From Aerophototrophica crusticola (lineage in GTDB: Bacteria > Pseudomonadota > Alphaproteobacteria > Azospirillales > Azospirillaceae), in NCBI GenBank assembly GCA_001939945.1, contig MOEB01000029.1:1-54638 (forward strand): DNA of 54,638 bases, given 5' to 3'. Below are positions 3,698-20,539 of the stretch, piece by piece. The number at the start of each line of letters is the position of its first letter. Position 1 is the stretch's first letter. A program made the translations under genes and the position numbers. Below the pieces are notes generated by a model. The model ran no database searches. It was given only the letters and a program-made list of their open reading frames with translations, and was not told the origin of the DNA.

Positions 3698-3996
3698 GGC
3701 TCACCGGTCGGATGGTTCGATCTCCGCACCAATCTAGCCCGTCGGCGCCCCACGGGGGAACCCGGCGCTGCCGGGGCCGGCGAGCCATCAGGCCGTTAGC
3801 CACACCGGGCTAAACCCTCTGCGCACGGTCACGCGCCGGTCGCCCCGGTGTACCACGGAATCGTTCCCCAAGCCCGCCCGCTGGGCGGTCTGGCCGGGTT
3901 GCGGCGCGAGGGTACAGTCAGGTATCACGCCGCGTCCCGCCGGGGTGGCCCCCATTCCCCGGCCGGGCTTGCCGGTCGTTGCCGAAGGTTGTGCGG

Positions 3997-4833
3997 ATGC
4001 CTGTCGCCGGGGCCCTGGCCCGCCCGTCCCCCTCGCCACACGCCATGGTCACCTCTGCCTGGATCCACCGTCGCCTGATCCTGCGGCTGGCCCGGCGGGA
4101 GGTGGCCGGCCGTTATCGTGGTACCGTGGCCGGCGCGCTGTGGAGCGTGCTGACCCCGCTGCTGACCGTGGCGACCTACAGCTTCGTCTTCACCCAGGTG
4201 TTCCAGCCCCGCTGGCAACTGCCAGAGGGCGCCCAGGTCAGCATCCCGCTGCTGCTGTTCTCCGGCGTGCTGCTGTTCGGCCTGTTCGCCGAGGTGGTCA
4301 GCCGCGCGCCGGGCCTGGTGTTGGAGAATGTCAGCTACGTGAAGAAGGTGGTGTTCCCGCTGGAGATCCTGCCCTGGGTCTCGCTGCTGTCCGCCCTGTT
4401 CAATTTGGGCGTGGGACTGTCGCTGATGCTGGCCGTCTATGCCGTCCAGTTCGGCCCACCGCCGGCATCGGTGGTGCTGCTGCCGCTGGTGTTGCTGCCG
4501 CTGGTGCTGCTGTCGCTGGGCCTGGGCTGGCTGCTGGCCGCCCTGGGCGTCTATCTGCGCGACCTGAAGCTGGCGGTGGGCATCCTCACCGGCCTGCTGA
4601 TGTTCCTCAGCCCGATCTTCTACCCGGTGTCCGCCCTGGGCGAGAAGGCGCGACCCTTCATCATGGCCAACCCGCTGACCCCGGTGCTGGAAGCCTCCAA
4701 GGACGTGCTGTTCTGGGGCCGCTTCCCCGATGGCACCCTGCTGGCGGTGGGCCTGGCGGTATCGCTGGCGGTGGCCTGGCTCGGCTGGGCGTGCTTCCAG
4801 AAGCTGCGCGGGGGGTTCGCGGATGTCGTCTGA
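3997..4833 (+). CDS. wzm: ABC-2 polysaccharide export permease (Wzm-like)
   Basis: Inner-membrane permease of an ABC exporter for O-antigen or capsule-type polysaccharide. After a short N-terminus with the family sequence LARREVAGRYRGT, hydrophobic segments give about six transmembrane helices. The region NVSYVKKVVFPLEILP near residue 105 is characteristic of Wzm/TagG-type permeases. The ATG at 3997 has a GAAGG element about 9 bp upstream; an ATG at 4045 (MVTSAWIHRR) is the main alternative and gives a more typical family start. The stop overlaps the start of the ATPase gene, so the two are translationally coupled. The partner ATPase has a C-terminal carbohydrate-binding domain, implying that a completed, end-modified glycan is recognised and exported. 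Confidence 0.88.
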   Translation: MPVAGALARPSPSPHAMVTSAWIHRRLILRLARREVAGRYRGTVAGALWSVLTPLLTVATYSFVFTQVFQPRWQLPEGAQVSIPLLLFSGVLLFGLFAEVVSRAPGLVLENVSYVKKVVFPLEILPWVSLLSALFNLGVGLSLMLAVYAVQFGPPPASVVLLPLVLLPLVLLSLGLGWLLAALGVYLRDLKLAVGILTGLLMFLSPIFYPVSALGEKARPFIMANPLTPVLEASKDVLFWGRFPDGTLLAVGLAVSLAVAWLGWACFQKLRGGFADVV

Positions 4834-6181
4834 GGCAGCGATCGTCGCCCAAGGCGCCAGCAAGTGCTACCGCATCTTCAAGAGGCCGGAGGACCGGCTG
4901 AAGCAGTATCTGAGCTTCGGTCGCCGCCGCTATTATGAGGAATACTGGGCCCTGCGCGACGTCTCCTTCACTGTGCGGCGGGGGGAGGCGGTGGCCATCA
5001 TCGGCCGCAACGGCGCGGGCAAGTCCACCCTGCTGCAGATCCTGTCGGGCACGCTCCAGCCTTCCTCCGGCACCGTCGAGGTGCATGGCCGGGTGGCGGC
5101 GCTGCTGGAGCTGGGTGCCGGCTTCAACCCGGAGTTCACGGGGCGGGAAAACGTCCACCTGGCCGCCACCATCCTGGGGCTGACCCCGGAACAGGTGACC
5201 GAGCGCTACCAGTCCATCGCCGACTTCGCCGGCATCGGCGACTTCATCGACCAGCCCGTGAAGTTCTATTCCAGCGGCATGTACGCCCGCCTGGCCTTCG
5301 CCGTGGCGGCCCATGTGGACGCAGACGTTTTGATCGTGGACGAGATCCTGGCGGTGGGCGACGCGGCCTTCACACAGAAGTGCATGCGATTCATCCACGA
5401 GTTCAGGAAGCGGGGTACTTTGCTGCTGGTGTCGCACGACCCCGGCTCCGTCACCAGCCTGTGCGAGCGCGCCATATGGCTGGACCGGGGCGAGGTACGG
5501 GAGGAGGGGCCGGCACGGGAAGTGTCCCATTCCTACCTGGCCGCCCTCTATGGCGAGCGGGAGGACGCCGGCGCCTTCCACATCGGCGGCTCGCGCCGGG
5601 CCCCGGTGGCGGAGGGCGCGCGGGTGGACGACCCGCGGCGGGAGCTGCTGGCCGCCTCCACCCACCGCAACGACATGGAGATATTCGCCTTCGACCCCGA
5701 CAGCCCCTGGTTCGGCAAGCGGGGCGGCACCATCGAGGCGGTGCGCCTGCTGAGCCCGGACGGGAGGCCGCTGGTCGTCCTGACGGGCGGGGAGGAGGTG
5801 GTGCTGGCCGTCACCGCCACGGCGCACGAGCCGCTGGACCGGCCCATCGTCGGCTTCTACGTGAAGGACCGGCGGGGGCAGACCCTGTTCGGGGACAACA
5901 CCTACCTGGCCTATCGCCAGGCTCCGGCCCCGGTTGCGCCGGGCCGGTCGGTGACCGCCCGCTTCCATTTCCAGATGCCCTTCCTGCCAAGCGGGGACTT
6001 CGCTGTCGTGGTCGCCTTGGCGGAGGGGACGCAGGCCAACCACGTCCAGCACCACTGGATCGACGACGCCCTGTTCTTCCGCGTGCAGTCCTCCCACGTG
6101 GCCAAGGGCCTCGTGGGCATCCCCATGATCGACATCCGGCTGGACGTCGCCGACCGCGACCCGTCCGAGGCCGCAGCCTGA
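4823..6181 (+). CDS. wzt: Polysaccharide ABC exporter ATPase with C-terminal glycan-binding domain (Wzt-like)
   Basis: A 452-residue ATPase that energises the Wzm-like permease. Walker A GRNGAGKST is at about 61-69, the ABC signature region YSSGMYARLAFAVA near 151 and Walker B ADVLIVDEIL near 170. The N-terminal extension ahead of Walker A (RPEDRLKQYLSFGRRRYYEE) is typical of Wzt/TagH proteins. Residues about 290-450 form a separate beta-rich domain (IEAVRLLSPDGRPL, ARFHFQMPFLPSGDFAV) matching Wzt C-terminal domains, which in E. coli O8/O9a bind the modified non-reducing end of the chain. The ATG at 4823 overlaps the permease stop. The next gene encodes a methyltransferase-containing protein that could supply such an end modification. 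Confidence 0.92.
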   Translation: MSSEAAIVAQGASKCYRIFKRPEDRLKQYLSFGRRRYYEEYWALRDVSFTVRRGEAVAIIGRNGAGKSTLLQILSGTLQPSSGTVEVHGRVAALLELGAGFNPEFTGRENVHLAATILGLTPEQVTERYQSIADFAGIGDFIDQPVKFYSSGMYARLAFAVAAHVDADVLIVDEILAVGDAAFTQKCMRFIHEFRKRGTLLLVSHDPGSVTSLCERAIWLDRGEVREEGPAREVSHSYLAALYGEREDAGAFHIGGSRRAPVAEGARVDDPRRELLAASTHRNDMEIFAFDPDSPWFGKRGGTIEAVRLLSPDGRPLVVLTGGEEVVLAVTATAHEPLDRPIVGFYVKDRRGQTLFGDNTYLAYRQAPAPVAPGRSVTARFHFQMPFLPSGDFAVVVALAEGTQANHVQHHWIDDALFFRVQSSHVAKGLVGIPMIDIRLDVADRDPSEAAA

Positions 6182-6231: not shown

Positions 6232-9200
6232 ATGAACGCGATCCAGAGCATCCGGGACTTCCAGGCAGAGCCCGAGGGCATGGGCCTCGGCCTGGCGCTG
6301 TCGATGCTCGCCCAACACCCGGTCATGTTGCGGACCCCTGAGCGGCTGACCGACGTGCCGAGTTGGCACCCCCACATCCCCTTCGCCTTCTGGTGCATCG
6401 ACGCGCTGCGCCCGCGGCTGTTCGTGGAGCTTGGGACCCATAAGGGCGACAGCTATTCCGCCTTCTGCCAGGCCGTCGCCCTGGTGGGGGCGGACACGCT
6501 CTGCTACGCCGTTGACACCTGGCAGGGCGACCCCCAGGCCGGGCTCTATGGCGACGAGGTGTTCAAGGAGCTGGCCGCCTACCATGGCCCCCGCTTCGAC
6601 CGCTTCTCCAACCTGGTCCGCTCCACCTTCGACGACGCGCTGCCCTATTTCGCCGACGGGTCCGTCGACCTGCTGCACATCGACGGGCTCCACACCTACG
6701 AGGCGGTGCGTCACGACTTCGAGACCTGGCTGCCCAAGCTCAGCCCGCGAGGCGTCATCCTGTTCCACGACACCAACGTGCGGGAGCGGGAGTTCGGCGT
6801 GTGGAGGCTGTGGGAGGAGCTGTCGGGGCGGTACCCGTCCTTCCACTTCCCCCACGGCCACGGGCTGGGTGTGCTGGCAGTGGGACCGGAGGCGCCGGCC
6901 GCCATCCGGCGCCTGACCGACGCGCCGGCCGCGGAGCAGGCCGGGGTGGTCAAGCTGTTCCACCGGCTGGGGCGCGGATTGCTGGCGGAGGGGCGATTCG
7001 CCCTGCTGGCGCGCGGAATCGACGAAGCCGAGGCGCGGCGGCTGGCCGAGGTGGGTGCCCGCGACGCCGCCATCGCGCAGCTGCACGGGGAGGCCGCCCA
7101 CCTGCACGGGGAGATCGCCCGGCGCGACGCGGAGCTGGCCGGGCGCGACGACGCACTGGCCCAGTTGCGGGCGGAACGGGATTCAGCCCTGCGGCAGGCC
7201 CAGGCCGAGGCCGACGCCCTGCGGGCCCAGGTGGCCGAGCGGGACGGGGCACTGGCCAAGGCGGCGCTGGAGGTGCAGACCTACCGGGCGGAGGCCGAGG
7301 GCCTGCGCGCCAGCCTGGCCGGCGGCCAGCCGGGGGCGGACTTGGCGCAGGCGGCGGAGGACCTGCGGCGGGAGCTGTCCCAGGCCCAGCGGCGGGCCGA
7401 GGACCTGCAGCGACGGCTGGACCAGTTGACCTCCGTCCATTTCGAGGCGGTGCGCCGGCTGCACGAGATCGAGGGCAGCACCACCTGGCGGGCGACGGGC
7501 GCGCTGCGCGGGGCCCTGTCGCGCCTTCCGCCCTCACTTCGCCAGAATGCCCGGCGGGGGATGAAGGCGGTCTGGTGGGCGGCCACGCCCCATAAGATCC
7601 CCGAGCGCCTGCGCTTCATGCGGGACCGCGCCCGGGCCGCCGGCCCCCAGCCCGCCGCCCCGGGCGTGCCGGCGCCCCAGCCGACCCACCTGTCCTTTAC
7701 CCCGGCCCCGGAAGCCCGGGACGCGGATGGGCGGGCCCTGCCGGCCCACCGGTCGGGCAGCTACGCCCTGGTGCCAGACCCATGCGGCTATGTCTATGTC
7801 CCGCCGCGCCGCCCCGACGACCTGGATGCCCGCCTGGCGGCGCTGCCCGTGCGGCCCCGCTTCTCCATCGTCGTGCCGGTCTACGACACGCCCGCCGACC
7901 TGCTGGGCAAGCTGCTGGCTTCCGTGCAGGCCCAGTGGTACCCGGACTGGGAGCTGATCCTGGTGGACGATTGCAGCCCCCGGGAAGCCACACGCGACGA
8001 GATGCGCGCGATCGGTGACGTTCGCGTGAAATGCCACTTCCTCACGGAGAACAAGGGTATATCCGGCGCCACCAATGAAGCCTTGGCGCGGGCGACGGGG
8101 GACTTCATCGTCTTCCTCGACCATGACGACGAGCTGACGGAGGACTGCCTGTATGAGCTGGCCGTCTGCATCGGGCGGGAAGACCCGGACTTCATCTACA
8201 GCGACGAGGACAAGATTGCCCCGGACGGCCGCTTCACCGAGCCCTTCTTCAAGCCGGACTGGTCGCCCGACACCATGATGAGCACCATGTACACCTGCCA
8301 CGTGTCATGCGTGCGCCGGAGCCTGGCGGAGGAGGTGGGCGGCCTGCGCAGCAAGTTCGACGGGGCGCAGGATTATGATTTCATCCTGCGCGTGGTGGAG
8401 AAGACCGACCGGATCGCCCACGTGCCGAAGGTGCTGTACCACTGGCGCGTGATCCCGGCCTCCGTGGCCGCCGACCTGGCCGCCAAGCCCTATGCCGTCG
8501 AGGCCGCGCGCCTCGCCCGCGTCACGGCGCTGGAGCGGCGCGGGCTTGAGGGCACGCTGGAGCCGGTGCCCCAGATCCCCGGCCATTACAGGGTCAACTA
8601 CAAGCCGCGGGGCAACCCGCTGGTCTCCATCATCATCCCGTCCAAGAACAACGGCAAGGTGCTGCGCCAGTGCGTCGACAGCATCAACGCCAAGTCGAGC
8701 CACGCCAACCGCGAGCTGGTGATCCTGGACAACGGCTCCACCGAGCGTGAGACGGTGGCCTACCTGGAGGGGCTGAAGGGACGGCCCGGGGTCACGGTCA
8801 TCCGGCATGACGCGCCATTCAACTTCTCGGAGATCAACAACATCGGCGCCCGCCATTCGAAGGGCGACATCCTGCTGTTCCTGAACGACGACACCGAAGT
8901 GCTGACGCCCGATTGGCTTGAGCGCATGGCCGGCTATGCCCAGCTCCCCCATGTGGGCGCCGTGGGCGCCAAGCTGGTCTACCCGAACACCCGGTCCATC
9001 CAGCATGCGGGCATCCTGAACCTTGCCGCCGGGCCGGGCCATGCCTTCCTGCAGGGGCACGCGGACGCCCCCGGCTATTTCGCCCGGGCGCTGCTGGAGT
9101 ATGACTGGATCGCCGTCACCGGCGCCTGCCTGATGATGGAACGCGCGAAGTTCGAGGCCGTCGGCGGCTTCGACGAGAGTTTCCCCGTGGCCTACAACGA

Positions 9201-9441
9201 TGTGGAGCTGTGCTTCCGCCTGGTGCGGAAGGGCCTGTACAACGTCGTGGTCCAGGCGGCGGAGCTGGTGCACCACGAATCCCTCAGCCGCGGCCGGGAC
9301 GAGTTGTCGCCGGAGAAGCGGGCGCGGCTGGAGACGGAGCGGCGGCGGCTCTATGAGACGCACCCCGGCTTCTTCATGCGCGACCCGTTCCACAGCCCGA
9401 ACCTGCACCCAGACAACGTCCATTTCGGCCTGCCGTGCTGA
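6232..9441 (+). CDS. Fused methyltransferase / coiled coil / tandem GT2 glycosyltransferases
   Basis: A 1069-residue multidomain protein. Residues about 40-215 are a class I SAM methyltransferase of the Methyltransf_24 type (FVELGTHKGDSY near 64-75, DLLHIDGLHTYEAV near 146). Residues about 273-413 are a long, charged Ala/Glu/Arg-rich coiled coil with repeated LHGE and AERD units. A linker STTWRATGALRGAL follows, as in other multidomain surface-glycan transferases. The first GT2 domain starts near 543 (RFSIVVPVYD, with FLDHDDE near 630), the second near 795 (SIIIPSKNNG, FLNDDTE near 885, EYDWIAVTGACLM). The start is the ATG at 6232, 50 bp after the exporter ATPase. This order suggests one polypeptide that both extends and methyl-caps an exported glycan, with the coiled coil as spacer. 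The roles are inferred; the domains are clear. Confidence 0.85.
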   Translation: MNAIQSIRDFQAEPEGMGLGLALSMLAQHPVMLRTPERLTDVPSWHPHIPFAFWCIDALRPRLFVELGTHKGDSYSAFCQAVALVGADTLCYAVDTWQGDPQAGLYGDEVFKELAAYHGPRFDRFSNLVRSTFDDALPYFADGSVDLLHIDGLHTYEAVRHDFETWLPKLSPRGVILFHDTNVREREFGVWRLWEELSGRYPSFHFPHGHGLGVLAVGPEAPAAIRRLTDAPAAEQAGVVKLFHRLGRGLLAEGRFALLARGIDEAEARRLAEVGARDAAIAQLHGEAAHLHGEIARRDAELAGRDDALAQLRAERDSALRQAQAEADALRAQVAERDGALAKAALEVQTYRAEAEGLRASLAGGQPGADLAQAAEDLRRELSQAQRRAEDLQRRLDQLTSVHFEAVRRLHEIEGSTTWRATGALRGALSRLPPSLRQNARRGMKAVWWAATPHKIPERLRFMRDRARAAGPQPAAPGVPAPQPTHLSFTPAPEARDADGRALPAHRSGSYALVPDPCGYVYVPPRRPDDLDARLAALPVRPRFSIVVPVYDTPADLLGKLLASVQAQWYPDWELILVDDCSPREATRDEMRAIGDVRVKCHFLTENKGISGATNEALARATGDFIVFLDHDDELTEDCLYELAVCIGREDPDFIYSDEDKIAPDGRFTEPFFKPDWSPDTMMSTMYTCHVSCVRRSLAEEVGGLRSKFDGAQDYDFILRVVEKTDRIAHVPKVLYHWRVIPASVAADLAAKPYAVEAARLARVTALERRGLEGTLEPVPQIPGHYRVNYKPRGNPLVSIIIPSKNNGKVLRQCVDSINAKSSHANRELVILDNGSTERETVAYLEGLKGRPGVTVIRHDAPFNFSEINNIGARHSKGDILLFLNDDTEVLTPDWLERMAGYAQLPHVGAVGAKLVYPNTRSIQHAGILNLAAGPGHAFLQGHADAPGYFARALLEYDWIAVTGACLMMERAKFEAVGGFDESFPVAYNDVELCFRLVRKGLYNVVVQAAELVHHESLSRGRDELSPEKRARLETERRRLYETHPGFFMRDPFHSPNLHPDNVHFGLPC

Positions 9442-9557
9442 GCCGGCAGGAAGCCTTCCGCGGCCCGAAGCCCGGCATCCCGACCCTGCGGCAGGCCCCC
9501 GTGGCCCCGCGGCCGGCGCTGCCCGGCAGGGTCCCCCCGGAACCAGGAACCGGCCCC

Positions 9558-11333
9558 ATGTTGCGCGACCTGCACGCCGCCATCGACCGTGCCGACGCCG
9601 TTTCGTTCGACGTGTTCGACACCCTGTTCGTCCGGCCGCTCTGTGACCCGGAGGACCTGTTCGACCTGGTGGGGGCCCGTTTCGGGCTGAAGGATTTCCG
9701 CCGGATCCGCCAGGAAGCCCAGGCCGAGGCCTTCCGCGAGATGCACCGGGCCGGGCGGAACGAGATCACCCTGGACGGCATCTATGCCTGCTTCCCCGAC
9801 CTGCCGGTGCCGACGGAGGTGCTGAAGCAGGCGGAGCTGGAGATGGAACTGGCCCTGACCCGGCCGAACCCGGAACTGGCGGAGCTGTTCGCCACCCTGG
9901 TCGCCTCCGGGCGCAAGCCGGTCGTCCTGACCTCCGACATGTACCTGCCGGCGAGCTTCTTCACGGCCCTGCTGGAGCGGCACCGCCTGCCCGCGGTACC
10001 GGCCTACATCTCCGCAGACCGGGACGCCACCAAGCGCGACCGCGGGGAGCTGTTCGAGATCGTGGCCCGGGGCCTGGGGCTGGCCCCCGGCCGCATCCTG
10101 CATGTGGGCGACAACGCCTTCAGCGACATCCAGCAGGGGCGGGCCAAGGGTTTCGACACCTGGCATTACCGGGCCCGGCGGCAACCGGCACAGTCCAAGC
10201 GCCCGTCCCTCTCCGCCTCCATGGCGGCGGGGCTGGTGCGGACCTATGGGGAGCCGACATCGGCCCAGGGCTTCTATGACCTGGGCTTCCGCCGGGGCGG
10301 GCCCGCGGCGGCGGCGCTGCTGGGCTGGGTCGGGCACCAGGCGGCGGCAGACCGGGTGGACATGCTGCTGTTCATCAGCCGGGACGGCTATGTGCTGGAG
10401 CGTATGGCGCGCGCCGGGAAGGTGCAGGGCCTGCCGCCCTATCACTACTTCAAGGGCTCCCGGGTGGCCTTCACCCTTGCGGCCACGGACGAGGGCAACT
10501 ATGCCGCCCAGGTGCCGGCCCTGCTGGCGGGTGCCGACGGTTTGGCGCCGCTGGAGGTGCTGGAGCGGATCGGCGTCACGCCCCCGGACGACGGGGTGAT
10601 GGAGGCGTTGGGCCTGGGGCCGACGGAGGTGCTGCGACCCGGCGGCCTGGACCGGATGGCCGCCTTCATGGCGGCATACCGGGCGGAGGTGCTGAAGGTC
10701 TGCCGCCGCACCCGGGCCTGCCTGTTCCAGTACCTGCTGGACCTGGGGGTCCGGCCCGGGATGCGGCTGGGCCTGGTGGACGTGGGCTGGAACGGGACCA
10801 CCCAGGACACGCTGGCCCAGGCCCTGCCCAAGCTGATGTCGGTTGAGCTTGTCGGCTATTATCTGTGCCTGGCGGAGACGCCGGAGTGCCGGGAGCGGCG
10901 CAGGCGTTTGGACATGCGGGCGCTGCTGTCCGCCGGAACGGTGCCGGCCGGGATGCTGGATAAGGTCTATGCCAACCGGGTCGTGGCAGAGATCCTGTTC
11001 TCCGCCCCCCATGGCAGCGTGATCGGCTATGAGCGCGCGCCTGGCGGGGGCGTCCGCCCCCTGGAGGACCCCGGGAGGCGCCGGGGGGAGGACTGGCGGA
11101 AAGTTTCCGACGAGATCGTGCGCGGGGTGGAGGATTTCTGGGACGGGTTCCGGGAGACCTGCGCCGCGGCCCGCTTCACCCCCGACCCGTTGGACCTGTG
11201 CACCCCCTTGCTGGACCTGCTCACCGGCATGGACGACCAGATGGCGGGCCTGCTGGCAACCGTGAAGAACTTCGACACCTGGGCTCAGTCCCGGCACCGC
11301 GACCGTAGCCTGCGGGAATATCTGACGATCTGA
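9558..11333 (+). CDS. HAD-superfamily hydrolase-like protein of polysaccharide loci (COG5610 type)
   Basis: A 591-residue protein. The N-terminal third is a HAD-like fold: motif I SFDVFDTLFVRP at about 17-28, motif II VVLTSDMY near 122, and motif III/IV ILHVGDNAFSDIQQG near 182. The residue two after the presumed nucleophile Asp18 is Phe, not Asp as in typical HAD phosphatases, so phosphatase activity is uncertain. The C-terminal part (about 215-591) has no family I can name, but this architecture recurs among proteins encoded beside O-antigen and capsule glycosyltransferases. I chose the ATG at 9558, preceded by AGGAA; a GTG at 9435 overlapping the previous stop would add a Pro-rich 41-residue leader. 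It is transcribed with the exporter genes, so a role in glycan modification is likely. Confidence 0.72.
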   Translation: MLRDLHAAIDRADAVSFDVFDTLFVRPLCDPEDLFDLVGARFGLKDFRRIRQEAQAEAFREMHRAGRNEITLDGIYACFPDLPVPTEVLKQAELEMELALTRPNPELAELFATLVASGRKPVVLTSDMYLPASFFTALLERHRLPAVPAYISADRDATKRDRGELFEIVARGLGLAPGRILHVGDNAFSDIQQGRAKGFDTWHYRARRQPAQSKRPSLSASMAAGLVRTYGEPTSAQGFYDLGFRRGGPAAAALLGWVGHQAAADRVDMLLFISRDGYVLERMARAGKVQGLPPYHYFKGSRVAFTLAATDEGNYAAQVPALLAGADGLAPLEVLERIGVTPPDDGVMEALGLGPTEVLRPGGLDRMAAFMAAYRAEVLKVCRRTRACLFQYLLDLGVRPGMRLGLVDVGWNGTTQDTLAQALPKLMSVELVGYYLCLAETPECRERRRRLDMRALLSAGTVPAGMLDKVYANRVVAEILFSAPHGSVIGYERAPGGGVRPLEDPGRRRGEDWRKVSDEIVRGVEDFWDGFRETCAAARFTPDPLDLCTPLLDLLTGMDDQMAGLLATVKNFDTWAQSRHRDRSLREYLTI

Positions 11334-11593
11334 GGGCGGGGTATGCCGAGCCGGTGCCCCCGTGGGATGATGCCCGACATTCGTGAGCCGGTCATGATCA
11401 ATGCCATATCCCGAATGGCTAGACGCAAGTCGCCATGTACATTACTTCAGTGGCAATGCCTGGGTATGATTTACGAGTTACCTCTTAATGGGTGCCCGGG
11501 CGGTCGCTTGTCTTGGGGATGACAATTGGATAGTGGTTGCGGGCCGTGTCAATGCTGCATGGCAACCTTGGTGCCCGCATCAGCAGAGCCGAG

Positions 11594-12451
11594 ATGAGCA
11601 ACTATTCCGAAGGCGTCGGCCCGGCCGGCCCGGACCGGCAGGGGGCTTGGCGGTCCCCGGTGTTCCTGGCGGGGACCCGTGGCGGGCCCGCCATCACTCC
11701 CGCGGCGCCCCAGGCCCTGGAAGCGGCAGCCGTGGACAAGGCGGACCGGCTTCTGATCATCGTCCCTTGCCTGAACGAGGCGGAGTCCATCGGCCGGCTG
11801 TTGGGCGAACTGGCGGAGCAGGCCCCGTTCGCCGACGTGCTGGTGGTGGATGACGGGTCCACTGACGACACGCACCTGATGGTGACGGCCCCGGCCCGCG
11901 CCGTGCGGTTGCCGGTGAACCTGGGCATCGGCGGGGCCGTGCAGACCGGGATCAAATATGCGGAGCGGAACGGCTATGGCCGCTGCCTGCAGGTGGACGG
12001 CGATGGACAGCACCCGCCCGGGGAGGTCCGCCGCCTGATGGCCGCCATGGACAAGGGGGGCGCCCAGCTCGTGATCGGGTCGCGCTACTTGACGGGGGAG
12101 GGGTTCCAGTCCTCGGCCATGCGCCGCCTGGGCGGCCGGGTGATCGGGCTGGCGCTGCGTTCCTGCTTCGGCGGGCGGCGGCGGGTCAGCGACCCCACCA
12201 GCGGCTTCCGCCTGATGGACCGGCGGGCCATCGAGTTCTTCGCCCGCCATTACCCCACGGACTTCCCCGAACCCATCTCCATCGCCTGGGCCCTGGCCCG
12301 CGGGATGCGGGTGGAGGAGGTTCCGGTGCAGATGCGGGAGCGGCAGGGCGGCGTGTCCTCCATCCGGATGATGAAGACCATCTCCTACATGGTGCGGGTG
12401 GTGTCCTACGTGCTGCTTGCCCGGGCGACCATCCTGCCGGGGAGGGCGTGA
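11594..12451 (+). CDS. GT2 glycosyltransferase, polyprenyl-phosphate sugar synthase type
   Basis: A family 2 glycosyltransferase resembling dolichyl-phosphate mannose or glucose synthases, which charge a polyprenyl phosphate with a sugar on the cytoplasmic face. Motifs: LLIIVPCLNEAESIGRLL at the domain start, VLVVDDGSTDDT, the metal-binding CLQVDGDGQHPP, and DPTSGFRLMDR in the acceptor region. There are no C-terminal membrane helices, unlike GtrB-type enzymes. The start is uncertain: ATG 11552, ATG 11594 and GTG 11732 are in frame, and the fold itself begins just after 11732. It is followed, with overlapping stop and start, by a DUF2304 membrane protein, a recurrent partner of such GTs. An AT-richer 260-bp gap upstream (11334-11593) probably carries its promoter. 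Confidence 0.85.
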   Translation: MSNYSEGVGPAGPDRQGAWRSPVFLAGTRGGPAITPAAPQALEAAAVDKADRLLIIVPCLNEAESIGRLLGELAEQAPFADVLVVDDGSTDDTHLMVTAPARAVRLPVNLGIGGAVQTGIKYAERNGYGRCLQVDGDGQHPPGEVRRLMAAMDKGGAQLVIGSRYLTGEGFQSSAMRRLGGRVIGLALRSCFGGRRRVSDPTSGFRLMDRRAIEFFARHYPTDFPEPISIAWALARGMRVEEVPVQMRERQGGVSSIRMMKTISYMVRVVSYVLLARATILPGRA

Positions 12452-12879
12452 GCGTGGCCGAGTACACTTCCGCCCCACAGCTGGTCGCCATCGTCTCGGT
12501 GTTCGCGGCGGCCTACGCCTACTATGTCGTGCAGAAGCTGCGGCGCCGGACCGTGGACCTTTACGATTTCCTGCTGCTGCTGTCCTTGGCCGGGTTGCCG
12601 CTGCTGTTCGTGGCCTGGCCCGGCTTCGCCACCTGGGTGGGGCGGTTCTTCGGCGTGGCGTTGCCACTGACGGTCATGTTCGGCCTGCTGTTCGTGGCCG
12701 TCTTCATCATCCTGCACCGGAGCATCTCCCGCATCCACAAGCTGGAGGTCCGGCTGACCCAGCTCGTCCAGGAGATCGGCCTGATCTCCGGCGAGGACCC
12801 GGCTGGCGGTGCCGTCCCGCCCCGGCCCGGTGCCAAGGCACCCGGAGAGCAGCGGCGGAACGAGTACGAGAAGGTGTGA
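12448..12879 (+). CDS. DUF2304-type small membrane protein
   Basis: A 143-residue protein with three predicted membrane segments (about 10-30, 41-60 and 66-90), then an amphipathic stretch LEVRLTQLVQEIGLI near 100-114 and a charged tail. This layout, with a conserved R-L-QE pattern after the last helix, is what I know as DUF2304. The GTG start overlaps the stop of the preceding polyprenyl-phosphate-sugar-synthase-like GT, so the two are translationally coupled. The family commonly occurs beside DPM1-like GTs and may anchor or regulate them; no biochemical role is assigned here. Confidence 0.75.
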   Translation: MSVAEYTSAPQLVAIVSVFAAAYAYYVVQKLRRRTVDLYDFLLLLSLAGLPLLFVAWPGFATWVGRFFGVALPLTVMFGLLFVAVFIILHRSISRIHKLEVRLTQLVQEIGLISGEDPAGGAVPPRPGAKAPGEQRRNEYEKV

Positions 12880-12886
12880 CCCGGCC

Positions 12887-13243
12887 CTATTGCGCGACCA
12901 TCAGGTAGATGCCGACAGCGATGGCCGCGGAGCCGGCGAACTGTCGGATGCCCAACTCCTCGCCGAAGATCAAGTGGCCCGCCAGGGGCACCAGGGCGAA
13001 GCTCAGCGCCATCAAGGGGTAGACACGGCCCAGCGGCAGGTATTGAAGGATCCAGATCCAGGCCAGTGTCGCCCCGCCATAGATCACGCCGGCCAGCAAC
13101 CCATAAGTCGCCGGCAGGGTCGCGAAGGGCGTGCCGGCCGTCCGCACCGCCTCCGCCGTCAGCTTGAACAGGACCTGGCCCGCCGCGATGGCCACCACGC
13201 AGGCGATGGCGATGGCGTAGTGGCCCATCGAGGCGGATTTCAT
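12887..13243 (-). CDS. Small four-helix SMR/EamA-like transporter (ArnE/ArnF-like)
   Basis: A 118-residue protein with four hydrophobic helices, the size and pattern of half-size drug/metabolite transporters such as SMR proteins and the ArnE/ArnF undecaprenyl-phosphate-aminoarabinose flippase subunits. Recognisable elements are GQVLFKLTAEA in helix 1, ILQYLPLGRVYPLMALSFALV around helix 3 and IFGEELGIRQFAGSAAIAVGI before the last helix. The second in-frame ATG (13243) overlaps the stop of the upstream methyltransferase gene as ATGA, so the pair is coupled; an ATG at 13249 is an alternative. Given the neighbouring polyprenyl-phosphate-sugar enzymes, a lipid-linked sugar flippase is a reasonable hypothesis. 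A drug exporter cannot be excluded. Confidence 0.72.
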   Translation of the reverse strand: MKSASMGHYAIAIACVVAIAAGQVLFKLTAEAVRTAGTPFATLPATYGLLAGVIYGGATLAWIWILQYLPLGRVYPLMALSFALVPLAGHLIFGEELGIRQFAGSAAIAVGIYLMVAQ

Positions 13244-13920
13244 CGGCATCGGATCTGGCAGACATAGAACAGGTTGAAGTCCGGCAGGGGGACCCCCAGG
13301 GGGGACCAGGCCTCTGACACGTCGTCAAAGTAGTAGCGGACAAGGGAGACCAGGTTCCACACGGAATTGATGTGTTCCCGGGCCATCACGTAGTCGTAGT
13401 TCATGCCAAGCCGTTGCGCCCGGCGGCGGGGGCCAAGGTGGCGGCCGGTGCGCCACATCAGGCCGGGGTCGCAGGGAAGCACCAGGGTCATGATCCCGCC
13501 CGGCTTCAATACCCGGTGCCATTCCCGCAGGACGTTGTGGGGATGGGGCAGGTGCTCCAGCACGTGGGTGGCGATCAGCCTGTCCACGCTGTTGTCCGGC
13601 ACGTCCAGTCGCGTCGCGTCCTGCTTCTCGATGGTGACCCGCCCGCGGTGGCCGCCGGAATCGATCTGGCCGAGCATGGTCGGGTTGAAGTCGGTCATGA
13701 CATAGTCGTCGAAGCCGTGGCGGACGAATTTCAGGTGCTCGCCCGTGCCGGCACCCACCTCCAGCACCCGGGAGAAGTGCCTGTCGGGGCCGTAGGGCCG
13801 CTCGGCCAGGGTATGGCTGTGCCGCATCATCGTCCCGACCAGGGACTTGTCATAGTTCAGCTTGCCATAGTTCTCCGCGAAGACGCGGCTGTGCTCTTCA
13901 ATGTCGATGTCCGGGTTCAT
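13240..13920 (-). CDS. Class I SAM-dependent methyltransferase
   Basis: A 226-residue methyltransferase of the Methyltransf_11/25 type. The SAM-binding motif VLEVGAGTGEHLKFV is at about 50-63, VMTDFNPTML follows as the acidic loop that binds the ribose, and LIATHVLEHLPHPHNVLREWHRVLKPGG is the usual post-motif region (about 108-136). No signal peptide or membrane helix is visible. It heads a two-gene minus-strand unit with the small transporter gene, overlapping by an ATGA. Its place among glycan genes suggests methylation of a sugar or lipid-linked intermediate, but the substrate cannot be read from sequence. The 524-bp gap upstream is shared with the divergent membrane-protein gene. Confidence 0.85.
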   Translation of the reverse strand: MNPDIDIEEHSRVFAENYGKLNYDKSLVGTMMRHSHTLAERPYGPDRHFSRVLEVGAGTGEHLKFVRHGFDDYVMTDFNPTMLGQIDSGGHRGRVTIEKQDATRLDVPDNSVDRLIATHVLEHLPHPHNVLREWHRVLKPGGIMTLVLPCDPGLMWRTGRHLGPRRRAQRLGMNYDYVMAREHINSVWNLVSLVRYYFDDVSEAWSPLGVPLPDFNLFYVCQIRCR

Positions 13921-14444
13921 CGCGCTTCCCTTGTGGACCGCCGGCCGGGGGCGGGACGGGCCCTATCCCCGGCCGCGGGGCAATCTGAGGCGTTGGGGTG
14001 GGCCTGGCTGGACGACGGGCCTGCTGCATGCGCGGGGGCTGGGGGCTGCCGGGCAGGTCGGCCCGTAGGCCGGACATCAGGCGGCATGGCGTTCGGCATC
14101 CGGCAGGCCAGGGTCGACCGATCCGGGCGGGCGTCACCGTCCCACCCATGAAGCGGCGGATAGTAACGGCTGGGAAGCGTCACGGGATCGGCAAACATCG
14201 GTTAATCCAGAAGTGGTATTCGATTGCGACATCTGGCCGGCCGGATAGTCTCCAACCACGCCTGTGTAGGGCCGGCGCCCGTTTCCCGAAAGGCACAGGC
14301 AGGTTTGGGTGCCGCCGATGGGCGACACCGGCCATCCTGGGGGCTGCCATGTCGGGACCGGGGTGGGATTGATCTTGGCCGGCTACTTGCCGTATCGCTA
14401 CGCAACCCGGTGGACCCGGGGACCGGTTGCTGGTGGGAAGCTGA
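13921..14444. other. Divergent intergenic region without a recognisable gene
   Basis: This 524-bp gap separates divergent genes. I see no coding segment with a recognisable protein, no tRNA and no strong terminator. A pocket with more A and T occurs around 14160-14230 and is the most likely promoter area; TTGCGA near 14225 followed by a TAGTCT-like element is a weak plus-strand candidate. Confidence 0.4.
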
Positions 14445-16586
14445 ATGAGGCGCGTCGATCCATTCGTCACGGCCGTCACCATGGTGACGGTCCTCTATGT
14501 GGCGCTTGCCCTGTCGCCTTCTTCCTATTCCGTGGTCCTGCACCTGCTTGACGTGCCGGACAAGGGCACCTGGCTGTTCGACCCCCAGCCGATCCGGTCG
14601 GACGAATGGGCGCTGTGGACGCCCCACCTGCAGATCGTGCTGAACAACGGGTTCGAGCGCTTCAATGCCACCTCGCCCTATGGCGAGGACCTGAGGAACC
14701 TGAACGGGCTCCCCCTGTGGGACTGGGCCCTGCTGTTCAAGCCGCAGTTCTGGCCGTTCTTCGTGGTGGACCCGGCCTATGCCTATTCCTTTTCCCACGC
14801 CGCCATCATGGCGGCCTTCGTCATCGGCTACCACCTGCTGTTCCAGGCGCTGGGCTTCGCCCGGCTGTGGGCCGCGGCCCTGTCGCTGCTGCTGTACTTC
14901 ACCTCCGCCTCGCAGTTCTGGTGGACCACCATCGGGCCAGTGATCGGCATCTTCCCCTGGCTGCTGCTGGTGGCGCTGTGGCGGTTCAACCCGGTGCTGA
15001 AGGCCCTGGCCATGGCCTGGGTCGCGACGGCTTGGTTCATGGCCATGCTCTACCCGCCGATCATGGTTTCCCTCGCCTTCGTGGGCGTGGTGCTGCTGGC
15101 GGCGTTCCGGCGCGACGCCCTGCGGCTGGGCAACCTTCTGGCCTGCGGCATCGGCGCGGCCGTGGCGGTGGGCCTGACCTACCTCTACCTGGCCGAGGCG
15201 TTCGCGGCCATGCTCCAGACCATCTACCCGGGCCAGCGGATATCCGCCGGGGGCGACGTCGGCATGGCCCAATGGCTCAGCCACTTCTTCCCCTTCCTGG
15301 TGGTGTGGCTGGACGAGTCCCTGCTGGCGGGCGTCAATGTCTGCGAGGTCTCCACGGGCGGGAGCTGGCTGCCCCTGCTGGCGCTGGTCTTCGTGAACCA
15401 CCGCGCCCTGGCGGAGCGGCTCCGCGCGCCCGGCACGGCAGGCCAGGAGGCGCGGCTGACCGTCTTCGTCCCCCTGGGGGCGGCGCTGCTGGTCAGCGCC
15501 TGGATGATCCTGCCGCTGCCGTCCTGGGCCGGGATGCCGCTGCTGTGGGACCGGGTCCCGCCCGTGCGCATGACCTTCGCCCTGGGGCTGTTGCTGACGG
15601 TGTGCGCGGCTGCGGTGCTGCGGGCGGCCCCCGCGTGCCTGTCCTGGCCGCGCCTGCTGGCGGCGGCCGTCCTTTGCGTGGTGGCGTGGGCGGCTTCGGA
15701 GGCGCTTGTGGCCGGGCGGGAGCAGCCGCGCTGGTCCTTCGCGCTGGTGCTGCTGCCCCTGCTGGGGCTCCTGGCCTGGGCCGCGCCCCGGCTGCACGGC
15801 CAGTTGGCCGCGGCGGGCGTCCTCTGCGTGGCGGCCTCGGCGAACCTGCTGGGGTTTGGCTGGTTCAATCCGGTCCAGTCGGCCAAGCCCATCTTCCACC
15901 GCCCGCCCACCGCCCTGACCGCCACGCTGGACAAGCATCAGGCGGAGCATCCGCAGGGCTGGCTGGTGACCACTGCCCTGCCAGGGGCCGTGCAGAACGG
16001 GCTGGGCTACCGCTCCATCAGCCATATCCTGGTGAGGCCGCAGCTCGACTTCTTCCGCCCGCGCTTCCCCGGCATGGATGACGCGGCCTTCAACCAGGTA
16101 TTCAACCGATTCGCCCACATCCATGCCACCGATGAGGTGGAGGTGCCCATTACCACGCAGGCCGACGTGATCAAGGTGCCGGCCTTCGCCTTCGGCGCGC
16201 CGAGACTGCGGGCGCCGGCCCTGTCGCTGGTGCCGGCCCTGGAGGGGGCGCCGCAGACGGGTGGGGTGGTGGATGCCGTCGTGCCCGGCAACCCGGTGGT
16301 GATCCGGGGCTGGGGCCTGTTCGCCGGGGATGCGGACGGGCGCCGGCTGTCCCTGAGCACCTCCGCCGCCGTCGCCTCAGCCACGGTACATCCAGTCCGG
16401 CGGCCGGACGTGGCCGCTGCCCTGGGCGACCACCGCCTGGGGGAAAGCGGCTTCGAGATCCGGCTGACCCTCAAGGAGGCCGGGGCCCTGCCGGACCTGT
16501 GCCTCGCCTCCGACGACCCGGCCTACGGTTCCCGCCTGCTCGCCCTACCTGCCGGCGGCCCCGCCTGCACGGCGGCGGGGCCCTGA
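14445..16586 (+). CDS. Large polytopic membrane protein, GT-C/YfhO-like, with C-terminal soluble domain
   Basis: A 713-residue integral membrane protein with about ten to twelve hydrophobic segments between residues 8 and 480. A long first loop after helix 1 contains PIRSDEWALWTPHLQIVL; acidic residues in the first periplasmic loop are typical of GT-C enzymes that use polyprenyl-phosphate sugars. Residues about 595-713 form a soluble domain (VVIRGWGLFAGDADGRRL, RRPDVAAALGDHRLGESGF) of a type seen as a C-terminal module in surface-glycan proteins. The ATG at 14445 follows GGGAAG. It lies opposite the DprE2-like gene with no gap: the two stop codons make the hexamer TGATCA at 16584-16589. A sugar transfer or glycolipid assembly role is inferred from fold class and context. 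Confidence 0.65.
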   Translation: MRRVDPFVTAVTMVTVLYVALALSPSSYSVVLHLLDVPDKGTWLFDPQPIRSDEWALWTPHLQIVLNNGFERFNATSPYGEDLRNLNGLPLWDWALLFKPQFWPFFVVDPAYAYSFSHAAIMAAFVIGYHLLFQALGFARLWAAALSLLLYFTSASQFWWTTIGPVIGIFPWLLLVALWRFNPVLKALAMAWVATAWFMAMLYPPIMVSLAFVGVVLLAAFRRDALRLGNLLACGIGAAVAVGLTYLYLAEAFAAMLQTIYPGQRISAGGDVGMAQWLSHFFPFLVVWLDESLLAGVNVCEVSTGGSWLPLLALVFVNHRALAERLRAPGTAGQEARLTVFVPLGAALLVSAWMILPLPSWAGMPLLWDRVPPVRMTFALGLLLTVCAAAVLRAAPACLSWPRLLAAAVLCVVAWAASEALVAGREQPRWSFALVLLPLLGLLAWAAPRLHGQLAAAGVLCVAASANLLGFGWFNPVQSAKPIFHRPPTALTATLDKHQAEHPQGWLVTTALPGAVQNGLGYRSISHILVRPQLDFFRPRFPGMDDAAFNQVFNRFAHIHATDEVEVPITTQADVIKVPAFAFGAPRLRAPALSLVPALEGAPQTGGVVDAVVPGNPVVIRGWGLFAGDADGRRLSLSTSAAVASATVHPVRRPDVAAALGDHRLGESGFEIRLTLKEAGALPDLCLASDDPAYGSRLLALPAGGPACTAAGP

Positions 16587-17366
16587 TCAGATGTTGGTCT
16601 TCTTGAACAGCGCCTCCGGCACCGACCGGATGATGGTCATGATCCAGCGCCAGGGCCAGGGGACATAGACCACCTCCGCCTTGCCGCGGACGGCCTTCAT
16701 CACGGCCTTGGCAAAGGCGTCCGGTGCCATGGCCATGGGCAGGGGGCCGGCGGACCAGGTCATGCCCGTGTCCAGGAATCCGGGTTTCACCGTCAGCACC
16801 TTCACGCCCTTGCGGAACATGCGGGCCCGGTAGCCCTGCAGGTAGGCGTGCAGCCCCGCCTTGGCCGAGCCGTAGACATAGTTCTTCAGCCGCCCCCGGT
16901 CGCCGGCGACGGAGCCCAGGGCCACCACCGTGCCCGTGCCGTGCCGCTCCAGGATCGGGGCGAGGTGCTGGAGGATGGAGACGGCGCCGCCATAGTTGGC
17001 CTGGATGGTCTTCACCGCCAGGGCGGGGTCCGCGTCCATCTCCGCCTGCTCGGGCATGGAGCCGAAGGCGAGGAAGACGCTCAGCGGTGCGGGCATGGCC
17101 TCCAGGTGGGCCGCCAGGGCCTTGTGGGAGGCCTCGTCCAGCGCGTCGAAGGGGACCACGTCCACACGGCGGCCGCGGCGCACCCGCAGGTCCGCGGCCG
17201 TGCGCCCAAGGTCATCCAGGTCGCGGCCGCACAGCACCAGGTCGGCGCCGCAGCCCGCCTCCCGCGCGAAGGCCCGCGCCACGGGGGAGGAGGCGCCCAG
17301 GATCACCCAGGTGCCCTCGGTGGCGGCCCGCATCGCCTCACGCGCGCCCGGTGCCCGGCCCATCAC
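16587..17366 (-). CDS. SDR oxidoreductase, DprE2-like decaprenylphosphoryl-2-keto-ribose reductase
   Basis: A 259-residue short-chain dehydrogenase/reductase. The nucleotide-binding motif is WVILGASSPVARAFAREA near residues 19-36, with LVLCGRDLDDL after beta-2. The catalytic Tyr and Lys occur in YVYGSAKAGLHAYL near 164. The C-terminal ending with hydrophobic and basic residues (WPWRWIMTIIRSVPEALF) resembles membrane-associated DprE2 proteins. In mycobacteria DprE2 reduces the 2-keto intermediate to decaprenyl-phosphoryl-D-arabinose. The start overlaps the end of the DprE1-like gene by 4 bp (ATGA), and the HAD-UbiA gene lies upstream, so the three genes form one operon for an epimerised polyprenyl-phosphate pentose. 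Function is inferred from homology plus operon; another keto-sugar substrate is possible. Confidence 0.8.
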   Translation of the reverse strand: MMGRAPGAREAMRAATEGTWVILGASSPVARAFAREAGCGADLVLCGRDLDDLGRTAADLRVRRGRRVDVVPFDALDEASHKALAAHLEAMPAPLSVFLAFGSMPEQAEMDADPALAVKTIQANYGGAVSILQHLAPILERHGTGTVVALGSVAGDRGRLKNYVYGSAKAGLHAYLQGYRARMFRKGVKVLTVKPGFLDTGMTWSAGPLPMAMAPDAFAKAVMKAVRGKAEVVYVPWPWRWIMTIIRSVPEALFKKTNI

Positions 17367-18697
17367 GCGCCCTCCCGGATGCGTAGCCGGCGGGCCAGGT
17401 CCGTCTCGAACCTGCCCTCGGGGTCCCAGCGCCGCAGGGTCTCGCGGAAGCGGGGCAGGTCGGGGTACATGGCCCGGAAGGCATCCGGCGTCAGGGCGCT
17501 GTCCTTGGCAAGGTAGACGCGGCCGCCCGCGTCCAGGGTGATGTGCTCCAGCTCGCGCAACAGCTCCTCCACCCCCGGCCGGTTGGGGATGTCCACCGCC
17601 AGGGTCAGGCCCGGCATGGCGAAGGACAGGTCACCCGGGCCCGGCCGGCCCATGGCCTTCAGCACCGCCAGGAAGGACCCGCGGCCGGCCCGGCCGAAGG
17701 CTTCCAGCAGCCGGCGGATCGCGTAGGGCCCGCCCGCGTGGGGGACGACGCATTGGAACTGGTGGAAGCCCTGGCGGCCATACATGCGGTTCCAGTGCAG
17801 GATGGCGTCCAGGGGGTAGAGGAACTTGCGCCAGGGCACCCGTGCCTCCGACCCCGCCGCGGAGACGCGGCGCCAGTACAGCGCGTTGAAGGCGCGCACC
17901 CCCGCCTTGCCCAGCACGAAGCCCGGCAGGTCCAGGGGCATGGCCAGGCTCTTCGCCTGCTTCTCCGGCACGAAGCCGTCCGCCGGGCCCGCCGCCTCCA
18001 GGATGCCGCGGCCAAGCTCCCGCCCGCCGGCCAGGGCGTCCACCCAGGCCACGGTGTAGGGCTGGCCCGGGCGGGGCTCCATCAGGGCGGCGAGGGTGGA
18101 ATCCAGGTCCGGAAGGCGGCGGGAATGGACCAACGCCGTGTTGCCCGGCACCCGCGCCATGGTGAGGGAGATGCCGGTGACGATGCCGGTCAGGCCGATG
18201 CCGCCCACCGTGGCCCGGAACATGTCGGCGTTCTGGTCGCGGGAGGCGCGCACCACCTCCCCCGACGCGGTCAGGATGTCCAGCCAGTTCACGTGGTCGC
18301 CCAGGGAACCTGCGGTTTCCTGGTTCTTGCCGTGCACGTCGTTGGCCACGCCGCCGCCCAGCGTGGCGAAGGCGGTGCCGGGGGTGACCGGGGCGAGGTA
18401 GCCGCGGGGCAGGAAGGTGTCCAGCAGGTCCCGCCAGGTGACGCCGGGCTCCGCCACCAGCTCGCCCGTCGCCTCGTCGAAGGACAGGAACCGGTCCAGG
18501 CGGGTGGTCAGCAGGGCGCTGCCCCCGCCGTTCAGCCCCACGTCGCCATAGCTGCGGCCCGCGCCGACGCCGGCGACCGTACCCTCCGCCCCCTTGAGGG
18601 CGCGCTGCAGTTCCGACAGCCGCTCGGGCCGGGCGGCGCGGCTTCGCGCCTGGTGCACCCGGCCCCAGCCCGTCAAGGTCATCTCACGCCAAGCCAT
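17363..18697 (-). CDS. FAD-linked oxidoreductase, DprE1-like decaprenylphosphoryl-ribose 2-oxidase
   Basis: A 444-residue FAD-dependent oxidase of the vanillyl-alcohol-oxidase fold. The FAD-binding half shows VAGVGAGRSYGDVGLNGGG near 41-59 and GTAFATLGGGVANDVHGKN near 106-124, with the HGKN element of DprE1. The C-terminal half includes the substrate-site Lys in VYLAKDSAL near 404, matching mycobacterial Lys418. The stretch LTLAVDIPNRPG aligns with the mycobacterial segment holding Cys387, the residue modified by benzothiazinones; here that position is Ala. Expected reaction: oxidation of the ribose C2 hydroxyl of decaprenyl-phosphoryl-ribose, followed by reduction by the DprE2-like enzyme encoded next. 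The gene sits 34 bp after the HAD-UbiA gene. Confidence 0.85.
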   Translation of the reverse strand: MAWREMTLTGWGRVHQARSRAARPERLSELQRALKGAEGTVAGVGAGRSYGDVGLNGGGSALLTTRLDRFLSFDEATGELVAEPGVTWRDLLDTFLPRGYLAPVTPGTAFATLGGGVANDVHGKNQETAGSLGDHVNWLDILTASGEVVRASRDQNADMFRATVGGIGLTGIVTGISLTMARVPGNTALVHSRRLPDLDSTLAALMEPRPGQPYTVAWVDALAGGRELGRGILEAAGPADGFVPEKQAKSLAMPLDLPGFVLGKAGVRAFNALYWRRVSAAGSEARVPWRKFLYPLDAILHWNRMYGRQGFHQFQCVVPHAGGPYAIRRLLEAFGRAGRGSFLAVLKAMGRPGPGDLSFAMPGLTLAVDIPNRPGVEELLRELEHITLDAGGRVYLAKDSALTPDAFRAMYPDLPRFRETLRRWDPEGRFETDLARRLRIREGA

Positions 18698-18731
18698 CTG
18701 TCCCGCCCTTGCCCCCGGCCGTCGCCGCGCC

Positions 18732-20267: not shown

Positions 20268-20539
20268 GGCAGGGTTCCTCACGGCAGCCTGTACGGATCG
20301 GTGTCCAGAACAGGCGCCCTGCCAAAGCATCACGCGGCTGCGAAAGGTTTGTTGCGGTTACCCAGGTGGCGGTGCGGCAACCTCGCCAGCCAGCCTAGGC
20401 CTAGGTCCCGCGGGGTAACGCGGAGGGCGGAATTGGCACGTCCACCAGGCCTGTGCATCCCCGCGCCGCTGGTTCCCGGTGCGGCGCACAGCCGTTTGCG
20501 CCCGTGGGCGGGGGCTCCCCCGTCCCGCGGGCGCTTTGG

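Follow-up and report, generated by a model that had tools for sequence, protein, structure and literature searches.

A kinase-free methyltransferase, a coiled coil and two glycosyltransferase domains in one chain beside Wzm/Wzt of Aerophototrophica crusticola: a probable terminator, ruler and polymerase

Organization of the locus

The DNA analysed here (the window) is a stretch of 54,638 nucleotides of Aerophototrophica crusticola (Azospirillaceae), which forms contig C203 within a genome of 6.06 Mb. Its forward strand carries an export locus in which a single gene (6232-9441) encodes a methyltransferase, a coiled coil and two glycosyltransferase family 2 (GT2) domains as one protein of 1069 residues. 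Upstream of this gene lie Wzm, an ABC-2 type permease (3979-4833, start codon uncertain; Pfam ABC2_membrane, 1.3e-20), and Wzt, an ATP-binding cassette (ABC) ATPase with a C-terminal glycan-binding domain (4823-6181; Pfam ABC_tran, 1.2e-22), for which we chose the ATG that overlaps the Wzm stop codon. The carbohydrate-binding domain of Wzt occupies 5708-6118 (Pfam Wzt_C, 1.4e-34), and 50 bp separate the end of the Wzt gene (6181) from the ATG of the fused gene (6232). A first-pass annotation, made from the DNA letters without database searches, had described both the three-part composition of the protein and its position 50 bp past an exporter ATPase with a glycan-binding domain, and both descriptions were borne out by the coordinates, the open reading frame (ORF), Pfam and AlphaFold2.

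Among the 23 loci found, the nearest full-length relative was that of Oleisolibacter albus (Azospirillaceae; L009), in which Wzm, Wzt, the fused protein and a HAD protein follow one another in the same order as in the window. The identity to the window protein was 73% in the methyltransferase and 73% and 66% in the two GT2 domains. The L009 stretch is identical to DNA of genome G066, which is listed in the genus of the window.

Structure of the fused protein

Pfam assigned Methyltransf_24 to residues 65-181 (1.7e-27) and GT2 to residues 545-665 and 798-1016. In the AlphaFold2 model of the whole protein, which was based on an alignment of 19 sequences and had a mean predicted local distance difference test score (pLDDT) of 79.8, the methyltransferase fold extended to about residue 222 (block pLDDT 56-89) and was followed by two long helices, two short helices up to residue 469, a low-confidence linker (470-521) and two C-terminal GT-A folds with pLDDT mostly above 83. 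The placement of the domains relative to each other is unreliable (predicted template modelling score 0.56). The Pfam scan of the protein returned no kinase domain and the model passed from the methyltransferase directly to the helix, in agreement with the earlier remark that a kinase like that of WbdD was not seen.

The first GT2 domain (7819-8571) contains DHDD at residues 630-633 (in FLDHDDEL, starting at 628), and the second (8587-9438) contains NDD at residues 885-887 (in FLNDDTEV, starting at 883). By E-value, the best matches of the whole model in the PDB were the two-domain polymerases for chondroitin and heparosan; their template modelling (TM) scores were low, 0.3-0.36 by target, because the two domains do not superpose as one, while single GT-A chains matched well (for example 6p61, 0.87-0.89).

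The methyltransferase domain, hereafter the head, comprises residues 1-222 (6232-6897) and carries the motifs VELGTHKGDS at 65, HIDGLHTYE at 149 and HD at 179-180. Conservation was assessed in 41 relatives. The loci inspected contained 45 head-bearing ORFs (44 at E<1e-40 and the distant L086), from which we left out L088 (a duplicate of L009), L083 (cut by a contig end), and L021 and L030 (which end shortly after the methyltransferase). E66, G68, G72, S74, W97, H149 and Y156 were conserved in 41/41 relatives, and D151, H154, D162, H179 and D180 in 40/41. A separate model of the domain (6 sequences, mean pLDDT 69.8) was placed by Foldseek among the class I methyltransferases, with the tRNA methyltransferase TrmR first (1.3e-07), MeT1 second (3.1e-07) and numerous O-methyltransferases after them, several of which name Mg in their titles, at TM-scores by query of just 0.38-0.48. 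MeT1 is described as a 1-O-methyltransferase of a methylmannose polysaccharide (PMC9883506). Searched against the PDB sequences, the profile of the domain gave no more than a weak match to 6g7d (E 0.02) and four MarR regulators, and the O9a WbdD was not listed at E up to 1. Our best guess is that the enzyme of the window methylates a sugar hydroxyl directly, with no phosphate between.

The proposed ruler is the long predicted helix of residues 233-430 (6928-7521), which AlphaFold2 modelled as two segments, 233-363 and 369-430, with block pLDDT of 65-83 through residue 410, falling to 57 in 411-430. The first-pass annotation had placed a coiled coil of about 140 residues at 273-413; that stretch does hold coil-scoring runs, but the predicted helix is longer, at about 200 residues. 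The structure prediction that it had proposed as a check returned helix over both segments, which rules out a coil predicted as disordered. A coil scan with our own script, using a Lupas matrix, found two scored runs in the window protein, 306-349 and 368-415, and gave no coil score for residues 265-305. In total, 92 residues of the spacer reached P>=0.5, against a shuffle mean of 2.1 with none of 40 shuffles as high; for residues 265-415 on their own the shuffle mean was 20.2, and 1 of 200 shuffles was as high. At least 28 spacer residues reached the same threshold in 38 of the 41 relatives.

At the end of the coil, a scripted pattern search located the conserved motif GSTTWRATGALRG (residues 415-427; 7474-7512). 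Its form STSWR..AP.R was matched by pattern in 35/41 relatives, which became 33/41 after the matches in L018 and L086 were judged false. One guess at its role would be membrane docking. A hydrophobic-moment scan (Eisenberg scale) singled out no membrane helix in the window protein because the coil segments score equally high.

Linkage of the head to one type of Wzt

With residues 1-230 as the query, 32 of 82 genomes of the family Azospirillaceae had a head match at 1e-10, and 30 after removal of the weak matches to short proteins in G077 and G081. The Wzt of the window was searched in the same 82 genomes at 1e-35, with the best 20 candidates of each genome scored, and matches were obtained in 75 of them. 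A window-type Wzt, defined as a match over both the ATPase and the C-terminal domain at >=58% identity, occurred at 35 places in 32 genomes. It was present in all 30 genomes with the head and in 2 of the 52 others (G037 and G065); the Fisher p of 2e-20 is not a tally of independent events because the genomes are related and the genes lie in one cluster. Five genomes free of the head (G002, G005, G009, G020 and G039) had a Wzt at 51-52% identity over both domains. The 34 places with a head were within 5 kb of a window-type Wzt in 28 cases and at 8.5 to 21.5 kb in 4, and in 2 cases the Wzt was on another contig.

For comparison, 20 loci around Wzts that do not adjoin a head were chosen from the matches of this search, 19 from head-free genomes and 1 around the second Wzt of the head genome G013. 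Two of them encode a stand-alone FkbM methyltransferase with a coiled coil beside a Wzt whose C-terminal domain is different (L123, 6964-8496; L124, 9756-11477), possibly a second kind of methyl terminator. In the remaining loci no head-like protein was identified, with nine ORFs in all checked by Pfam. Locus L110 has two large neighbouring ORFs (10458-14432 and 14540-19000; 1325 and 1487 residues) in which coil stretches precede GT2 and GT4 domains and Pfam recognised no domain at the N terminus.

The C-terminal domain of the window Wzt was closest among PDB sequences to that of Aquifex (8dky, 4.1e-10), followed by 2r5o (0.066), which we take to be the E. coli O9a Wzt domain, and 5hno (0.25). 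In the Aquifex aeolicus domain, which binds 3-O-methyl-mannose, Trp362 is reported to stack on the 3-O-methyl group, Asn313 is a ligand of the ring oxygen, and W362L essentially abolishes the binding of lipopolysaccharide (PMC9445017). The comparison covered 32 head-linked Wzts. The family supplied 28 of them, and L080, L081, L082 and L084 came from other parts of the class; for the other 9 of the 41 heads, the fetched stretch contained no Wzt with the ATPase and the C-terminal domain together. The equivalents of Asn313, Ala348 and Trp362 of Aquifex were N, A and W in 32/32, with a background of 28 invariant columns out of 151 in this domain. Among the 20 Wzts not adjoining a head, one of which is cut short, N was found in 9, A in 13 and W in 12.

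Comparison with known systems

The one-chain plan is already published for Klebsiella. ORF6 of K. pneumoniae O7 is described by Kelly et al. (2024) as a protein in which an N-terminal methyltransferase and a kinase precede a carbohydrate-binding module, and a coil then leads to two GT2 domains with DXDD and NXD motifs; its terminator and polymerase activities were demonstrated in vitro, and its cluster includes wzm and wzt (PMC11231755). By this description the window protein shares with it the methyltransferase, the coiled coil, the two C-terminal GT2 domains with the same pair of motifs and the wzm/wzt surroundings, all in one chain, but neither the kinase nor the carbohydrate-binding module before the coil is seen in the window protein, and the cap in O7 is a methyl-phosphate. 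WbbB of K. pneumoniae O12 is likewise presented as one polypeptide that combines a terminator with a coiled-coil ruler and two polymerase modules; its terminator adds 3-deoxy-D-manno-oct-2-ulosonic acid (Kdo), and its modules are GT99, GT102 and GT103 (PMC11231755). The layout of these proteins recurs in the window, where a terminator-type domain, a coiled coil and polymerase-type glycosyltransferase (GT) domains follow in order, adjacent to Wzm and a Wzt that bears Wzt_C. An architecture without precedent is thus ruled out by these two proteins, and the idea of a fused terminator, ruler and polymerase, which we retain as the best reading, is less novel than the first-pass annotation held.

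With WbdD of E. coli the window protein shares the N-terminal methyltransferase and, as in O9a, a C-terminal coiled coil; in E. coli the polymerase is a protein of its own, WbdA, and is recruited by WbdD (PMC3482155). The window protein also differs from WbdD of O9a, as from O7 ORF6, in having no kinase domain between the methyltransferase and the coil. An argument against a terminator from the missing kinase was considered and ruled out, since the WbdD of E. coli O8 is described as a simple methyltransferase (PMC3482155) and the absence of a kinase is therefore no defect for such a role; the window protein, with its methyltransferase and coiled coil and no kinase, is of this plainer type. The novelty here lies in the head, which lacks a kinase and belongs to another methyltransferase family, in the several kinds of tail attached to it, and in its place beside an exporter domain akin to one that reads a methyl cap. 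No publication on this methyltransferase family as a terminator was present among the full-text matches listed, which consisted of titles and abstract openings, with most subscription journals outside.

Proposed mechanism and alternative explanations

We conclude, with a probability of roughly 0.7, that a single chain here serves as terminator, ruler and polymerase for the polysaccharide exported by the adjacent Wzm/Wzt, which is probably an O antigen. The two C-terminal GT2 domains would extend the lipid-linked chain at the membrane, and the coiled coil would keep the N-terminal methyltransferase away from them, so that only a chain of sufficient length could get there. The methyltransferase would then methylate a hydroxyl of the terminal sugar directly, with no phosphate link, and growth would stop; the C-terminal domain of Wzt would recognise the methylated end, and the chain would be exported. 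We infer the activity of the protein, the terminal position of the methyl group, the ruler function and the identity of the sugar. The ruler part is a proposal that draws on analogy and on the predicted helix; the capping part is supported by the linkage to one type of Wzt and by the apparent kinship of its domain, judged by sequence, with readers of methyl caps. The domain order, the predicted fold, this linkage and the conserved residues of the methyl site all favour the proposal.

Several observations weigh against it. Methyltransferases that resemble the head exist without a coil (L030, 269 residues; L021, 301 residues), the coil scan was blank in 3 of the 41 relatives (L076, L085 and L103), and in L078 the coil score was no better than that of 4 of 40 shuffles. 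G065 has a window-type Wzt in a genome in which no head was found, and in G037 the window-type Wzt adjoins a different coiled-coil protein of 495 residues. Within the Wzt domain, the Trp column is also W in 12 of the 20 Wzts away from a head and the whole HHW motif is kept in 8 of them, so that the motif is no marker of head-linked Wzts. The Aquifex pocket is changed in the window, as read from the alignment, at Leu300 (to Tyr), Thr346 (to Val) and His350 (to Ala), three differences from the domain described in PMC9445017; the His350 position is Ala in 32/32 head-linked Wzts, and the other two are variable. In pairwise identities the agreement of the Wzt domain was closest with its own ATPase (0.90), less close with the methyltransferase (0.49) and absent for the final 400 residues of the polymerase (0.02), so co-evolution of cap enzyme and cap reader is not singled out.

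The coiled-coil protein of G037 (L108, 10205-11689) stands directly after the window-type Wzt, has no Pfam domain and weakly matched an O-methyltransferase (E 0.011). It is a candidate for an undescribed terminator.

The role of the coil bears on a first alternative, in which the methyltransferase caps the chain, the coil serves the assembly of an oligomer alone and chain length follows from the relative activities of the enzymes. The coil of the O9a protein is reported to be needed also for trimer formation (PMC3482155), and the spacers of the 24 relatives with a GT2-GT2 tail span 172 to 455 residues. Against this, a role of the coil as molecular ruler is described as established for the E. 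coli O9 serogroup and for K. pneumoniae O12 (PMC11231755), and we regard an assembly-only coil as unlikely.

A still less likely explanation is that the methyltransferase decorates residues within the chain during synthesis, terminating nothing, and that the coil merely joins it to the polymerase. In one O antigen of Azospirillum halopraeferens, about 45% of an internal L-rhamnose carries a 2-O-methyl group; the paper describes this internal group and shows no cap (PMC4902059). Methyl groups in the family therefore need not be caps, which is a further point against the capping proposal. Internal decoration accords poorly with an enzyme placed beyond a long helix and with a Wzt domain of methyl-cap kinship that has the methyl-stacking Trp in 32/32 cases. 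The FkbM methyltransferases with coils beside Wzt in L123 and L124 are, moreover, what one would expect were methyl terminators a recurring feature. A methyltransferase domain without activity, or with a different substrate, would leave the GT2 half alone to matter for the glycan; this reading would fit the domain's weak sequence match to solved methyltransferases and its best fold match, TrmR, but is very improbable against SAM-binding and catalytic-site candidates that are near invariant over the 41 relatives while the kinds of tail differ.

Distribution of the head and its tails

The head is patchy in Azospirillaceae and rarer beyond: counting the genome of the window itself, it was found in 9 of 385 genomes of a class sample at 1e-20 and in 12 of 398 genomes of a phylum sample. 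Tail classes were assigned by Pfam and BLAST, the individual Pfam rows being inspected for the window and 8 relatives, and the rest assigned by BLAST to those together with family counts. The same domain order beside wzt, for which the first-pass annotation had suggested a search, was found in Oleisolibacter albus. A GT2-GT2 tail was present in 24 of the 41 relatives, followed by RgpF-GT2 in 6, GT2-GT2-GT4 in 3, GT2-GT4 in 2 and no GT in 2, with single cases of GT4, GT2-GT9, GT4-RgpF and an undefined segment with GT2. The heads thus carry seven defined kinds of polymerase tail, one undefined kind, or none. On a tree of the methyltransferase (206 columns), in which 10 of 38 inner branches are open and the branch of L086 is very long, the nine tail states, with 'none' and 'undefined' counted, need 8 changes, the minimum for nine states; GT2-GT2-GT4, considered by itself, requires two gains or losses. 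Modularity of this kind was previously noted for the O7 head, whose orthologs are reported to occur with and without GT modules (PMC11231755).

A tentative view, to which we give somewhat less than even odds, is that the head with its coil and the matching Wzt domain form a transferable cassette for capping, measuring and export, repeatedly joined to different polymerases or left without a GT tail, in which one cap code and one exporter would serve many glycans and the coil length would tune each of these. If this is true, the identity of a glycan (set by the polymerase tail) and its length and export (set by the head, the coil and the Wzt domain) would be separable parts that evolution has swapped. 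The relatives would then be a natural series of hybrids in which one kind of head comes with coils of many lengths, suited to tests of how a coil measures a polymer, and the parts could be used in building export systems for designed polysaccharides.

Neighbouring genes

The gene after the fused gene (9435-11333, forward strand; start codon uncertain) encodes a HAD-family protein of 632 residues (Pfam Hydrolase, 1.8e-07) with a large C-terminal part without assignment. Its neighbour in Oleisolibacter albus is 57% identical, and its position after the fused gene is kept there.

The region adjoining the export genes (11537-20333) looks like a pathway for a polyprenyl-phosphate pentofuranose that would be added outside the membrane, and the gene set resembles the three-component systems described in PMC11127046. 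It comprises a GT2 near polyprenyl-phosphate sugar synthases (11537-12451, forward strand), an EamA half transporter (12887-13249, reverse strand) and a DUF7657 protein (14445-16586, forward strand). On the reverse strand follow a DprE2-like reductase (16587-17366) and a DprE1-like oxidase (17363-18697), both under the NCBIfam cut-offs, and a UbiA-family prenyltransferase (18732-20333), which is over its cut-off. The segment 21015-26876 encodes first a protein of 715 residues with one Peptidase_S51 match, which by eye resembles two such units in tandem and may be a cyanophycinase. The protein after it resembles cyanophycin synthetase and has ATP-grasp and Mur ligase domains.

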